Shown: one piece after another, positions 2,660 through 48,230 of the stretch | How the letters are laid out: the number at the start of each line of letters is the position of its first letter | Numbering within the stretch: position 1 is the first letter of the stretch | DNA from: a virus | Direction: 5' to 3' (one strand) | Length of the DNA stretch: 56,124 nucleotides | Virus record (IMG/VR): IMGVR_UViG_3300047163_000046 | Span: 1-56,124 of that record | The notes under the pieces: model-generated | The model's database searches: none | What the model saw: only the letters and a program-made list of their open reading frames with translations | Told to the model about the DNA's origin: nothing | Position numbers and translations under genes: made by a program

Positions 2660-4228
2660 ATGGCCGTTGCCCCGAACGCTGCTGGAAAGCCTGGCTTCCA
2701 GGGGCTTGCGGCCGCGTTGCAGCACGCCTCCCCCGCCTTCAATGCCGTCGATGAAATCCTCGAGGAGCTTGCCCAGTACGAGAACGATCCCCTGGGGTTC
2801 GTCACCTGGGCATACCCGTGGGGTGAGAAGGATGGCCCGCTGGAGAAATTCTCCGGGCCCGACAAATGGCAGATGGAGGTCTTCGGCGAGATCGGCGAGA
2901 AGCTGCGCGCTGGTGGCGACAGGGGATGCGTGATCCAGAAGGCTGTCCGCTCCGGCCACGGGATCGGCAAGTCGGCGTTCTCCGGGATGCTGGTCGACTG
3001 GGCGATCTCCACCATGCCAAGGACGCGCGGCGTGGTGACCGCGATGACCGAGCCCCAGTTGCGCACGAAAACCTGGTCGGAGATGGCCAAGTGGCACGGC
3101 ATGTGCATCGCGCAACACCTGTTCGAGGTCCAGGGCCGATCGATCATCGCCAAGGGCATGGACAAGAGCGGCCAGGAGCTTGGCCGCGTGTGGCGCATCG
3201 ATGCGATCCCCTGGTCGATCCAGTCGACCTCGAGCTTCGCGGGCCTGCACAACCTGGGTCGTCGCATCCTCGTGCTGTTCGACGAGGCCAGCGAGATCGA
3301 CGATGAAATCTGGCGCGTGACCCGAGGTGCCCTCACGGACCTGGACACGCAGATCATTTGGGTGGTCATGGGTCAGCCCACTCAGACCTCCGGCGAATTC
3401 TTCCGATGCTTCCAAGGGGGCCATGAGTGGTCGCCACGCACCGTTGACTCGCGTGAATCGCGCTTCTCGAACAAGAAGCTGATTGCTCAATGGGCAGAGG
3501 AATATGGCGAAGACTCTGACTTTTTCCGTGTGCGGGTGCGAGGCCTGCCTCCGAGGGCTGGTATCTCTAATTTCATCGCAGTCGACACCGTGCGTGCTGC
3601 ACGAAAGCGAGAGCTTGATCGAAACCTTTGGATCTCAATGCCCAAAAGGATGTCTATCGATCCGGCTCGATACGGTGACGATTCAAGCGTCATCACCGTC
3701 CGCCAGGGGCAAAAGACGATCGGACAATGGAAATACTCAGGTCTGGACGGACCAGACCTGGCATCTCGTGCTGTCACAGAGGTATGGCACAACCACCGCG
3801 ACATTACTGGCTGTGCCGTCGACGCAATCGGAATCGGGGCAAGCTGCTGCGACGCCCTCAAGCGAGTCTCCGGCTTTCCCCTCATTGAAGTCAACGTCGC
3901 GGCTCCGGCCGGTGCCGACAACGAGTACACCAACCTCAGAGCCGAACTCTGGGGACGAATGAGGAAGTGGCTCGAGGTCGCCGAGATCCCCGACGATGAC
4001 GAGTTGCAGGACCAGCTTTGCTCGTTGAAGTACGGGTTCGATGGCAAGAGCCGCATCCAGCTTCAATCGAAGAAGGACCTCAAGAGCGAAGGCTACCCGT
4101 CGCCCGACCTGGCCGACTCGCTCAGCTTGTCGTTCTTCGAGGACGTCATCATCCGCAAGCAGATGACCAAGGCGCCGCGCCTGCCGACCAATACGCGGCA
4201 GCGCAACGTGTGGAACCAACGGAGGTAG
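2660..4228 (+). CDS. terL: Terminase large subunit
   Basis: The 522-residue product is the DNA-packaging motor ATPase and headful nuclease. The ATPase domain shows a Walker A motif SGHGIGKS near residue 98 and a Walker B ILVLFDE near 203-209. The RNase H-like nuclease domain has candidate acidic residues in SIDPARYGDD (about 334), CAVDAIGIG (about 388) and SPDLADSLSLSF (about 482). Length fits the family. It would work with the small subunit encoded far away at 41702 and with the portal just downstream. Roughly 3470-3960 has a lower G/C third position than the flanks, suggesting mosaicism inside the nuclease domain. Confidence 0.96.
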   Translation: MAVAPNAAGKPGFQGLAAALQHASPAFNAVDEILEELAQYENDPLGFVTWAYPWGEKDGPLEKFSGPDKWQMEVFGEIGEKLRAGGDRGCVIQKAVRSGHGIGKSAFSGMLVDWAISTMPRTRGVVTAMTEPQLRTKTWSEMAKWHGMCIAQHLFEVQGRSIIAKGMDKSGQELGRVWRIDAIPWSIQSTSSFAGLHNLGRRILVLFDEASEIDDEIWRVTRGALTDLDTQIIWVVMGQPTQTSGEFFRCFQGGHEWSPRTVDSRESRFSNKKLIAQWAEEYGEDSDFFRVRVRGLPPRAGISNFIAVDTVRAARKRELDRNLWISMPKRMSIDPARYGDDSSVITVRQGQKTIGQWKYSGLDGPDLASRAVTEVWHNHRDITGCAVDAIGIGASCCDALKRVSGFPLIEVNVAAPAGADNEYTNLRAELWGRMRKWLEVAEIPDDDELQDQLCSLKYGFDGKSRIQLQSKKDLKSEGYPSPDLADSLSLSFFEDVIIRKQMTKAPRLPTNTRQRNVWNQRR

Positions 4229-16858: not shown

Positions 16859-17595
16859 TGTCCAGCGGCACGTTCTCCCTGCTCGTTGGGCCACCGAACC
16901 CCTCCCTGGATGCGCAGAGCTTCGCCGGGGCGATCACCGCAGGGCAACTCACGCCGGCCTCGACCCCCGTGGCCAGCCTGGTGGGCGACCTCGCCGCGCG
17001 CGTGCGCCAGGCGCCGATGTCGGTCGTGCAACTGGCCTACATGCGCGCCTGCCGCGATTTCTGCAAGCGATCGATGTGGCTCAAGCGCCAGATCACGGCG
17101 GCGCCGGTCACCGTTGGCCAGGCCCTCTACAACTTCGGGTCGGACGCCACGCTCGAGGTCATCGGCGTTTCCGCCGCTGCGATCCAGCAGCAGAACGCCA
17201 CGTGGATCGACATTCGATCCGCCGACCAGGCGACCTTCGATCCGAACCAAAAGAACGATATTCCCCAGTGGTACTCGTATGTCCCGGAGAACATGGTCGT
17301 GCTTTATCCGACCCCGGACTACACGTACAACCTGCGGACCTCGCTCATCTGCCAGACCGCGCTCAACGCCACCGCTGTCCCCAACGACCTCATCAACAAA
17401 TTCAACATCGTCATCGAGGAGGGTGCGATGGCGCACCTGTACCTGATGGACAAGGAGCCCTGGTTCAGCCCGCAGCTTGCCGAAAAGGCGATGGAGGCCT
17501 TTTGGGATGGCATCGGCCAGGCGCGCACCTGGCGCGATAAGGGCAACCAGCAGGGCAGCGTGCGCGCGACCCCGCGCAATTTCATTGCGAGGTAG
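16858..17595 (+). CDS. Tail adaptor or connector protein
   Basis: This 245-residue protein starts at the last base of the previous gene. It has an N-terminal helical part (LAYMRACRDFCKRSMWLKR) and a beta-rich middle (WIDIRSADQATFDPNQKNDI), then helices. It follows the DUF6682-type protein in many podovirus gene orders and is probably a second connector ring component. No catalytic motif is seen. Confidence 0.65.
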   Translation: MSSGTFSLLVGPPNPSLDAQSFAGAITAGQLTPASTPVASLVGDLAARVRQAPMSVVQLAYMRACRDFCKRSMWLKRQITAAPVTVGQALYNFGSDATLEVIGVSAAAIQQQNATWIDIRSADQATFDPNQKNDIPQWYSYVPENMVVLYPTPDYTYNLRTSLICQTALNATAVPNDLINKFNIVIEEGAMAHLYLMDKEPWFSPQLAEKAMEAFWDGIGQARTWRDKGNQQGSVRATPRNFIAR

Positions 17596-41532: not shown

Positions 41533-41756
41533 TGGCCGGGCCGCCTCAAGACCTCGATGCCCTGTACCGGCGGGCGCTGGAGCGCGATGCGCTGCTGGAG
41601 GCGCGCATCCACGATCTTGAGCAAAAGGTCGCCATTTTGACGGTTGAAAATCATCGGTTTTCTGCTGTAATACGGCGGCTGACGTGCCAAATTGAGGATT
41701 TATGCCAGACACCGACCCCAAGCTTCTCGCAAAAGCTGGTCGACCCTTCGGACTGA
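41529..41756 (+). CDS. Small coiled-coil protein before terS
   Basis: This 75-residue protein has a heptad-rich helix (LEARIHDLEQKVAILTVENH) and a Cys-containing tail. It overlaps the previous stop and the start of the small-terminase gene by 55 bases. Either ATG 41529 or 41532 may be used. Coupled expression with terS suggests a packaging link. Function is inferred from position only. Confidence 0.5.
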   Translation: MMAGPPQDLDALYRRALERDALLEARIHDLEQKVAILTVENHRFSAVIRRLTCQIEDLCQTPTPSFSQKLVDPSD

Positions 41757-42319
41757 CCTTCAAGGAAATCGAATTCTGTGCGGCCTACGTCACCCACGGC
41801 AAGGCCGAGAAGGCTGCCATCGAGGCCGGCTACTCCGAGAAATACGCGAAGAATGCCTATCGGCTCCTGCGCAAGGAAAACGTGGCGGCGTTCATCAAGC
41901 AGCGGATCCTCGAGCGGTTCGATGCGGAGCGCATGGAAAACGGCGAGATCCTGGCCAGGCTGGCCCGCTTGGCGCGCTTTGATCCGCGCCAGCTGCAAAA
42001 CGAGGATGGCACGTACAAGGCGCTCAGCGAATTGGACGAGGCCACGGCCTACGGCCTGCGAGGCATGGAGACGGATCTGATTCTTGGCCAGGAGGCGGAA
42101 GACCAGGCCGGGCAGGGCGCGGTGGCGCTGGCGACGCGCAAGTACAAGTTTTCCGACCCATTGCCGGCGCTCAAGGTGCTGGCCCAAGTGGGGCATCTGC
42201 TGGACACGGGTAATCAGCAAATCTCGGTTTTCATAGACCTCGATTCCAGGCTCGATGCTGCGCGCCGCAGGAAAGCCTTGGCCAATCAGAACGATCCAAA
42301 TGTGGTCAGCGACCAATAA
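41702..42319 (+). CDS. terS: Terminase small subunit
   Basis: This 205-residue protein has the DNA-recognition features of phage small terminases: the pattern GLTFKEIEFCAAYVTHGKAE, AAIEAGYSEKYAKNAYRLLR (helix-turn-helix) and a long helical middle. Small terminases bind the packaging site and load the large subunit. Here it is about 39 kb from terL in the linear window, or about 17 kb if the genome is circular. It is the end of the early rightward gene group before the structured RNA. Confidence 0.85.
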   Translation: MPDTDPKLLAKAGRPFGLTFKEIEFCAAYVTHGKAEKAAIEAGYSEKYAKNAYRLLRKENVAAFIKQRILERFDAERMENGEILARLARLARFDPRQLQNEDGTYKALSELDEATAYGLRGMETDLILGQEAEDQAGQGAVALATRKYKFSDPLPALKVLAQVGHLLDTGNQQISVFIDLDSRLDAARRRKALANQNDPNVVSDQ

Positions 42320-42410
42320 GTACCTGCGCGACCGCGCGAAGCTGATGCGTCTGCTCGCGTACTTGGCCGCAGCGAAACGTCTGCATGGCGAGTTCGCTAA
42401 CGCAGGGTGA
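42300..42410 (+). CDS. Very small protein after terS (tentative)
   Basis: This 36-codon frame starts inside the terS end and encodes a basic helical peptide (YLRDRAKLMRLLAYLAAAKR). It lacks a clear ribosome site. It may be translated by overlap with the terS stop. Its stop lies about 20 bases before the structured-RNA region, so it could be a leader peptide. Confidence is low. Confidence 0.3.
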   Translation: MWSATNKYLRDRAKLMRLLAYLAAAKRLHGEFANAG

Positions 42411-42429
42411 CGTGATAGCATTGCCGTCC

Positions 42430-42568
42430 CGGGTGGTTCCGGGGGCGAACCGGAGATGCACTCCGCGCCGGCTCATCGGCGTGACGAAAGATCCAGGTAG
42501 GGCCTCCGGTCCCTGCAAGGGTTCCTGCCTAACCAGCAGGCGTCACGCCAATGAGCCGGTATTTTTTT
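42430..42568 (+). ncRNA. Unidentified structured RNA or 5' leader with intrinsic terminator
   Basis: This region has no convincing gene but strong secondary structure. GGTTC/GAACC (42435-42451) and GGAG/CTCC (42452-42464) are two hairpins. A long 18-bp stem (42468-42485 with 42542-42559, one mismatch-type pair) encloses CCCT-GCA-AGGG and CCTGC-CTAACCA-GCAGG hairpins. Seven Ts follow at 42562-42568, so the whole is a terminator. The ribosome site of the next gene (GGAG) follows at once, as in riboswitch or attenuator leaders. I know no RNA family that matches. Confidence 0.6.
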
Positions 42569-42578
42569 GGAGATTGCA

Positions 42579-43157
42579 ATGAAAGATGCGCCGATCAATC
42601 TGCCAGAAGCCGCCGAGGCGCTGTTGCTGCGGGCGAAACAGGCACTCACGATGTCCACTGCGACGATAGGGCAGCGGGACATAAACACCGCAATCGTTGA
42701 GGACATCCGCGCGTATCTTCTTGCCGCCCCATCGCCCGCATCCCCGCAAGTGCCTAGCCAAGAGCCGGTTGCATGGCGTTCGTGGCACGACAAGGACGGC
42801 TATGGGTTTTGGGACACGGAAGACGAGGCGCGGCTGTATTGCGCACCAGACGCCGAGCCGGAACCGCTCTACGCCGCTCCCCAACCACAAGCGCCTAGCG
42901 CCACTTCGGATGACATGCGGGATAAAAGGATTGCGGAGTTGGAACAGCAGAATCGAGCAATCCTGTACGACTACCACAACGGCACGCCTTGCGAGCAAAT
43001 AGCGTGGGCACAAGAACGCGACGCATTGAAAGCCTCCCTTGCTGACGCACGCGATAAGGCACTGGAAGAAGCGGCTCAGATGTTTGAGAAGCGTTGGCCG
43101 CAATGGGATGACTGTGCAAATGCAATCCGCGCCCTGCGCGCCAATTCGGAGAAATGA
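42579..43157 (+). CDS. Ea22-like phage accessory protein
   Basis: This 192-residue protein contains PVAWRSWHDKDGYGFWDTED and EPEPLYAAPQPQ, motifs of a common family of modular phage accessory proteins (often called Ea22-like). A coiled-coil middle (RIAELEQQNRAILYDYHNG) and a helical C terminus follow. TTGGAG lies upstream and overlaps the end of the T-run of the structured RNA, so that RNA may regulate it. Function is not known. Confidence 0.6.
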   Translation: MKDAPINLPEAAEALLLRAKQALTMSTATIGQRDINTAIVEDIRAYLLAAPSPASPQVPSQEPVAWRSWHDKDGYGFWDTEDEARLYCAPDAEPEPLYAAPQPQAPSATSDDMRDKRIAELEQQNRAILYDYHNGTPCEQIAWAQERDALKASLADARDKALEEAAQMFEKRWPQWDDCANAIRALRANSEK

Positions 43158-43649: not shown

Positions 43650-43954
43650 GCATTACCTACGTTGGGAAACTTTGCGAATGCCACCCTGAACTGGATGGCG
43701 TTCGCTACGACAGCACGCGGACTTGCGTTGCCTGCGCCAAAGAGGCGGCGACGGTCAGGTATTGGCGCGACAAGCAGCAAAAGACGCACGCCAATTTGCT
43801 TGCCGCCCTGATGCGCGAGAAGAACTTGGAAAACGAATGCCAAAGATTGCGAGCCGCCAATGATGCACTATCACGGAACACCGATCACCCCGATGTCCAA
43901 GCTGCTGCGTATGCGCGGAAGGAACTTCTGCGTAAGTCACGCGGCCCCAGCTGA
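43646..43954 (+). CDS. Cys-rich accessory protein
   Basis: This 102-residue protein starts at GTG overlapping the previous TGA. It has KLCECHPELDG and TCVACAKE, a zinc-ribbon-type Cys pattern, then a coiled coil (QKTHANLLAALMREKNLENE). The last 95 bases overlap the start of the transglycosylase-like gene. No function is recognised. Confidence 0.5.
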   Translation: MSITYVGKLCECHPELDGVRYDSTRTCVACAKEAATVRYWRDKQQKTHANLLAALMREKNLENECQRLRAANDALSRNTDHPDVQAAAYARKELLRKSRGPS

Positions 43955-44534
43955 TCTGAAGCGGTGCCTCAGCATTGGACAATCGGTGATGTTTGACAAC
44001 GGGGCATTCTCAGCGTTCACCAAAGGCAAGAAGTTTGATGAGGCCGGATTCTATGCGTGGATTGAGCCGCATCTAGGTCACCCGCATTGGGCCGTGATCC
44101 CAGACGTTATTGACGGGGATGAGGGCGAGCAACGACGCATGGTGGGCCGCTGGCCGTTCAATCGAACGCTGGGGCTTCCTGTATGGCACCTTGGACTGTC
44201 GATTGACTATCTGCTTTACCTGGCCCAGACATGGGACCGGATTTGTTTCGGGTCTACGGCGCAGTATTGGGAGGTCGGCGGTGATGCCTGGTGCGGGCGC
44301 ATGGACGAAGCATTTAATGCCCTGGCCAAGCGACACGCAAAACTGCCGTGGATTCATGGCCTGCGGATGCTTGGCATGGCCGGGATGCGGTGGCCGCTGG
44401 CATCGGCTGACTCGACGAACATTGCCCAAAACCACCATATTTACGGATGCCCGGAATGCATGGCGGATAGACTGGACGCCACGCAAACGCCGGTCACTTG
44501 GCAACCGCACGCAACCCAAGGGATGCTGATATGA
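43860..44534 (+). CDS. tRNA-guanine transglycosylase-like protein (DpdA-type candidate)
   Basis: This 224-residue protein resembles short phage members of the TGT superfamily: YHGTPITP, SVMFDNGAFSAFTKG (DNG, residues 46-48, comparable to the catalytic DSGGF of TGT), WAVIPDVIDG, PVWHLGLSIDYLL, WIHGLRMLG and LASADSTNIAQNH (D184). DpdA enzymes put 7-deazaguanine into DNA. No synthesis genes (queC, queD, queE, folE) were found in the window, so the base would come from the host. Target (DNA or tRNA) is inferred. It overlaps both neighbours. Confidence 0.65.
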   Translation: MMHYHGTPITPMSKLLRMRGRNFCVSHAAPADLKRCLSIGQSVMFDNGAFSAFTKGKKFDEAGFYAWIEPHLGHPHWAVIPDVIDGDEGEQRRMVGRWPFNRTLGLPVWHLGLSIDYLLYLAQTWDRICFGSTAQYWEVGGDAWCGRMDEAFNALAKRHAKLPWIHGLRMLGMAGMRWPLASADSTNIAQNHHIYGCPECMADRLDATQTPVTWQPHATQGMLI

Positions 44535-48018: not shown

Positions 48019-48230
48019 GGCGGCGGCGCGGCGGGCCTACGGTGTTCATCCGTAACGCGACCCAGGCGGACGCTTGGGAGCCGGCGTGGATCCCGTGCCC
48101 GGAGTGTGAAAACCCCTGGTGCACGATCCATGAGATGCACGCGCACGACTGTGAATGCCCGGCGGTCGAGGACTGGACCTGTGACCCATACGCGCCAGGG
48201 TCAAAAAAAGCCCGCCAGGAGGCGGGCTAA
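48015..48230 (+). CDS. Small Cys/His-rich protein
   Basis: This 71-residue protein starts at an ATG overlapping the previous TGA. It has an Arg-rich N terminus (MRRRRGGP) and CPECENPWC, HEMHAHDCECP, a zinc-ribbon-like Cys/His set. It is the last gene of the rightward operon. Its 3' end overlaps the intrinsic terminator of the opposite strand. No function is recognised. Confidence 0.55.
   Translation: MRRRRGGPTVFIRNATQADAWEPAWIPCPECENPWCTIHEMHAHDCECPAVEDWTCDPYAPGSKKARQEAG
48203..48228 (-). terminator. Intrinsic terminator for the leftward operon
   Basis: Read on the minus strand, AGCCCGCC-TCCT-GGCGGGCT forms an 8-bp stem followed directly by seven Ts (TTTTTTT, 48209-48203, sharing the last stem position). 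It lies 21 bases after the stop of the last leftward gene. This is a textbook rho-independent terminator, placed within the 3' end of the convergent gene. Confidence 0.9.

Follow-up and report, generated by a model that had tools for sequence, protein, structure and literature searches.

In a 56,124-nt stretch of viral DNA (the window, one IMG/VR virus record, whose large terminase is epsilon15-like), the region from 42428 to 42568 is, as judged by folding models, a real, noncoding, structured terminator, and with moderate confidence it can be read as a cis-acting intrinsic terminator, probably regulated as an attenuator, that lies between a terS-like gene and the next gene of a rightward operon. 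The structure, the U-rich tail and the position of the element are observed directly, as is a covarying family of phage RNAs with the same layout, here designated F1. Cis-acting phage transcription attenuators are a known kind of element; the F1 family, the main by-product of this analysis, appears to be undescribed. The features of the region are as follows:

41644..41671, plus strand: top-scoring sigma70-like site in the window, TTGAAA-16-TGCTGTAAT (predicted, PWM scan, rank 1)
41702..42319, plus strand: terS-like gene of the Terminase_2 type, the upstream neighbour (Pfam PF03592, E 4e-20; PHROG 51, E 2e-23)
42300..42410, plus strand: possible ORF of 36 aa that overlaps the 3' end of terS, with a GC1/2/3 pattern resembling that of the phage's genes
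42393..42421, plus strand: moderate promoter-like site of the extended -10 type, TTCGCT-17-TAGCAT, the second hexamer preceded by TG (scan, rank about 92, weak)
42428..42443, plus strand: leader hairpin, CCCGGG-UGGU-UCCGGG (MFE fold)
42449..42455, plus strand: ACCGGAG, counterpart of the F1 linker, 7 bp complementary to CUCCGGU
42451..42465, plus strand: second 5' hairpin, CGGAG-AUGCA-CUCCG (full-length MFE fold from 42428)
42468..42486, plus strand: 5' arm of the long stem (fold)
42497..42516, plus strand: inner hairpin A, GUAGGG...CCCUGC, with CCUCCGG within its loop (fold)
42504..42510, plus strand: CUCCGGU, segment of the hairpin A loop complementary to 42449-42455
42524..42540, plus strand: inner hairpin B, CCUGC-CUAACCA-GCAGG (fold)
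42541..42559, plus strand: 3' arm of the long stem (sequence, fold)
42560..42568, plus strand: U-tract TATTTTTTT, a terminator-like tail (sequence)
42569..42572, plus strand: Shine-Dalgarno GGAG, immediately 3' of the U-tract (sequence)
42579..43157, plus strand: downstream gene, 192 aa (ORF)

The GC-rich long stem (CCGGCUCAUCGGCGUGACG against CGUCACGCCAAUGAGCCGG) consists of 18 Watson-Crick pairs and a single C/A mismatch (42477/42550), nine pairs out from the inner end, and encloses 54 nt that fold as two hairpins (about 42490-42523 and 42524-42540), in agreement with the initial annotation, which had described an 18-bp stem around two hairpins. It is followed directly by UAUUUUUUU, which gives the region the hallmark of an intrinsic terminator. 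The seven Ts previously placed after the stem are present, with the correction that an extra T-A comes first (T-A-TTTTTTT), and the GGAG follows right after them as had been stated, the ATG at 42579 lying 10 nt past the U-tract. The two hairpins proposed at the 5' end were borne out only in part, as alternative pairings exist (CCCGGG/CCGGG, GGUUC/GAACC) and of the two only CGGAG-AUGCA-CUCCG is present in most full-length folds. That no convincing gene occupies the region was confirmed, since the ORFs crossing it do not have the GC1/2/3 codon-position pattern typical of the phage's genes.

The minimum free energy of the whole region is -76 kcal/mol (z -4.7), a value equalled by 0 of 200 shuffles, and when both strands of the 56-kb window were tiled the element stood out most among 2800 tiles (z -6.9). 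With loops of up to 100 nt considered, no other near-perfect inverted repeat in the window is as long as its stem. The runner-up among anomalous folds, at 3650-3820 on the minus strand, is antisense to terL (z -5.8). On readthrough the GGAG is predicted to pair with about 42596-42608 (-9.5 kcal/mol), so that a hairpin formed with the early codons of the downstream gene may mask its ribosome site (fold of 42560-42612).

The terS-like gene is preceded at about 30 nt by the window's top-ranked promoter-like site, a candidate promoter of a transcript ending at the element, and the simplest reading of this transcript would comprise terS, the possible 36-aa ORF and the terminator. An RNA started from the extended -10 site is predicted to begin near 42428. 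The downstream gene matched no family in Pfam or PHROG searches; presumably it resembles the Eaa/Ead-type phage early proteins, as suggested by a PVAW...PLYAAP motif. The terS-like gene lies far from terL (2660-4228), whereas the two are adjacent in related contigs, and the ORF preceding terL (2238-2657) gave no terS-like match. The early region also contains a queuine tRNA-ribosyltransferase-like gene (43860-44534; PHROG 887, E 1e-43) with homologues of about 50% identity in cyanophage and rhizobiophage genomes. No tRNA or tmRNA was found, and a search of the window for a second copy of the element, as in a nutL/nutR-like pair, returned none beyond chance.

With Rfam 15, which includes C4, riboswitches, 6S and others, nothing reached the gathering threshold over the window and nothing matched the region up to E 10, which upholds the earlier statement that it fits no known family. 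No DNA homologues of the element were detected in the phage, plasmid and viral contig collections, and a single-sequence peptide-pattern search of the viral contigs gave no relatives of terS, the downstream gene, the helicase or terL; an alignment search with terL did recover relatives. Synteny yielded no orthologous intergenic region, because terS adjoins terL in those checked relatives that have a terS match. Among 399 genomes from the order of a Rubrivivax metagenome-assembled genome, the downstream protein had no relative and the short DNA matches were at chance level only. As no sequence relative was found in these collections, the search was made by architecture alone, for a stem of at least 11 bp, a loop of at least 25 nt and a T-run, in 61 loci (1.06 Mb) comprising the window and terL-related phages and contigs.

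In this structure-only scan the window element came first, and two further loci share its layout with unrelated sequence. One of them (L253:15281-15353) has an 18-bp stem, two hairpins and eight Ts, followed by GGAG and ATG. In a later 2.5-Mb scan the stem energies of the window element and of L253 were -37.2 and -29.2 kcal/mol, respectively, and the best stem in shuffled sequence of twice 2.5 Mb was -26.7 kcal/mol. The other (L108:17346-17422) belongs to an AT-rich phage outside F1; there the long-stem terminator (17346-17440) adjoins a Shine-Dalgarno sequence and ATG, and an 11-bp complementarity is found between leader and inside (TTGCGAGACAG/CTGTCTCGCAA).

The gene 3' of the L253 element has homologues in named phages, and in the Leptolyngbya phage Lbo-JY16 (L261) a homologous RNA precedes the homologue of that gene. 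A further homologous RNA, flanked by a NinB-like gene and gene 51, was identified by a DNA search in Pseudomonas phage AH02, and a motif scan added more members. F1 thus comprises L253, L261/L315, L290, L294, AH02 (L311/L313) and at least about 40 IMG/VR loci; a looser motif scan followed by a model brought the family to at least about 47 phage loci. Its elements include:

L253, 15251-15362: F1 element
L315, 10544-10652: F1 element
L290, 7283-7391: F1 element
L294, 3497-3607, minus strand: F1 element
L313, 29518-29629: F1 element
L325, 2211-2322 and 4025-4142: two F1 copies in one viral contig, 1.8 kb apart on the same strand

The family has a leader hairpin, a loop-complementary linker, a long stem of 16-17 bp, two inner hairpins and a U-tract, with conserved motifs in the leader (UUGGCGGG) and between the inner hairpins (GUCCGCCAA). 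The covariation in F1 is overwhelming. In a five-member MAFFT alignment, which was not fitted to the structure, 16 of the 29 pairs show compensatory changes and 98.6% of cells pair. Among the matches listed, the alignment of about 47 loci has double changes on both sides in 26 of 29 pairs (367 cells), including all 16 pairs of the long stem, and 99.1% of its cells pair as against 34-50% in slid structures; these counts are biased towards the structure to which that alignment was fitted, and a few low-scoring or opposite-strand rows are included. In 45 of the 47 F1 loci among the matches listed, the U-tract is followed within 30 nt by the start codon of a reading frame of at least 40 codons, mostly at 5-12 nt, and as a control 28% of random positions pass an ATG-only test within 45 nt. 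The named matches among ten downstream proteins scanned are replication proteins, endonucleases and an AntA antirepressor. Rfam holds no F1 family and a text search of a literature collection on the F1 motif and phage attenuators returned no relevant description, and F1 is apparently an undescribed covarying phage RNA family. In 200 genomes from the order of the Rubrivivax genome and 398 Pseudomonas genomes the F1 model found nothing convincing, with one 28-bit match (L312).

Folding of the five core members indicates that in most of them, before the 3' arm is present, the leader pairs with inner segments of the element, the 5' arm lying between them, and that the long stem wins once the 3' arm is there. 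The leader-inside duplex is stronger than in shuffles in L253, L261, L290 and L294 (p 0.002-0.016) and marginally so in AH02 (p 0.06). In nearly all members listed, the 6-7 nt linker that leads into the long stem and the loop of hairpin A are complementary, and the linker sequence varies together with that of the loop (TCAGCA/TGCTGA, TAGGCA/TGCCTA, GCAATA/TATTGC, GTAGTA/TACTAC, AATTGGT/ACCAATT), a variation that, read from the aligned sequences, is covariation of a putative long-range contact.

The window element has the F1 layout, with a leader hairpin, a long stem enclosing two hairpins, a U-tract, an immediate ribosome site and an ATG within about 15 nt. The long stem of F1 often carries a mid-stem mismatch as that of the window does, and the mismatch nine pairs from the inner end is common to the window and three of the five core members; the loop is 35-40 nt in F1 and 54 nt in the window. 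Complementarities between leader and inner segments occupy the same topological places in both, less securely in the window. There, UGGUU of the leader hairpin (42434-42438) is complementary over 5 bp to AACCA in the last inner hairpin, in addition to the ACCGGAG/CUCCGGU match, which alone is expected by chance in 5-9% of cases and was chosen post hoc; the joint chance of both in F1 positions is 0.5-0.8%, for a pair selected after F1 had been seen. The total leader-inside duplex energy in the window is no better than in shuffles (p 0.26-0.45) and was dismissed as proof of an antiterminator. The F1 motifs are absent from 42428-42568, and the F1 covariance model R1 gave no plus-strand match at the locus up to E 10. 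The second such model, R2, scored 9.5 bits over the full length, a match set aside as evidence, since the reverse strand scored higher (11.4 bits, from the stem alone). With the layout shared and the model match not credible, the window element is, on sequence grounds, not filed as a member of F1; by analogy, it most likely works in the same way.

Under the attenuator reading, polymerase would transcribe the leader with its one or two hairpins, then the 5' arm, the two inner hairpins and the 3' arm, and closure of the 18-bp stem at the seven-U tract would free the RNA ahead of the GGAG, so that the downstream gene would be expressed only when polymerase reads through. Until the 3' arm emerges, the leader may hold the junction, delay it or reshape it through the putative UGGUU/AACCA and ACCGGAG/CUCCGGU contacts. 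We infer termination, its regulation and a regulator, which might be a phage factor, a polymerase contact or a trans RNA; regulated readthrough in the window is proposed by analogy with F1, whose own function is putative.

The initial annotation had left the choice between a riboswitch or attenuator for the gene at 42579 and a stable small RNA, and among these the attenuator is the best supported, because phage elements of the same architecture form a covarying family before start codons. It is also conceivable, though unlikely, that a plain, unregulated terminator closes a terS-like unit running from the promoter at 41644 to 42568, with the decorated loop incidental and the next gene supplied on its own or by readthrough. 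The position of the window's best promoter-like site just 5' of terS, the strong stem with its U-tract and a leader-inside duplex within chance would all suit such a terminator; however, the phage's canonical terminator candidate, at 48208 on the minus strand, has a short loop, the decorated layout is conserved with covariation in F1, and the window scan found no noteworthy promoter-like site between the stem and the GGAG. It is also possible, given the promoter-like site, and a live alternative although improbable, that the phage makes a discrete, stable small RNA (about 140 nt) that acts in trans, perhaps in the manner of the P4/P1 immunity RNAs, and is transcribed from a promoter of its own (42393-42421) to its own terminator. 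The extended -10 site is positioned for a start at about 42428, the fold is discrete, and seven-U tails are typical of Hfq-bound small RNAs, but the promoter score is ordinary, the best start position lacks a purine, and F1 members stand directly before a start codon, which indicates a role in cis.

Hairpins for RNase III processing or mRNA stability occur between early genes, as in T7 and the lambda N leader, and a long double-stranded stem right before a ribosome site recalls them; since that function does not account for the U-tract that adjoins the base of the stem in the window element, as in nearly all F1 members listed, it is a very improbable one here. The least probable reading, with hardly any chance of being correct, makes the element a riboswitch that binds a ligand and controls the gene at 42579. 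The order of leader, terminator and ribosome site would suit one, but there was no Rfam match up to E 10, no metabolic gene lies immediately 3' of the window element, and none was found among the F1 genes scanned; this part of the earlier proposal is not supported.

Among known systems, the C4/P4 CI immunity RNAs are likewise phage early-region RNAs with loops complementary to leader segments and termination-based control; an intrinsic terminator adjoining a ribosome site is not a defining part of them, and the C4 family gave no Rfam match to the window. The lambda late leader pR'-tR' (6S RNA) resembles the window element in being a short leader RNA that ends in a terminator and requires readthrough, whereas the window element sits in the middle of an early-type operon and is not followed by late genes. 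The put RNA of HK022, an antiterminator of about 70 nt with two stem-loops that is defined by antitermination and by binding of the polymerase beta' zinc-binding domain, likewise controls termination as a structured RNA acting in cis in phage early operons, but unlike the window element it has no terminator of its own (PMC9378689).

It is possible, at somewhat less than even likelihood, that the window element belongs, as a highly diverged member, to a widespread, previously undescribed class of F1-like RNA switches in phage early operons. In such switches leader segments would pair with loops inside a long three-way-junction terminator that adjoins the ribosome site of the next gene, and would thereby set how much polymerase reads through into genes for replication, recombination or accessory functions; some phages would have one switch in each of two divergent operons. 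If so, many phages would carry an unrecognised RNA checkpoint right before their replication and recombination genes, outside the known N, Q and put antitermination systems. F1 itself has exceptional covariation support and named carriers in Pseudomonas phage AH02 and Leptolyngbya phage Lbo-JY16, and its function is therefore testable at the bench.

On the strand opposite to their F1 element, phage AH02 and the L290 phage each have a further long-stem terminator that precedes a start codon; the two run downwards on the minus strand from L313:22648 and L290:1725, respectively. The arrangement looks like a left/right operon pair, comparable to nutL/nutR or putL/putR, and in the second terminator of AH02 the complementarity between leader and loop region is strong (z -8).
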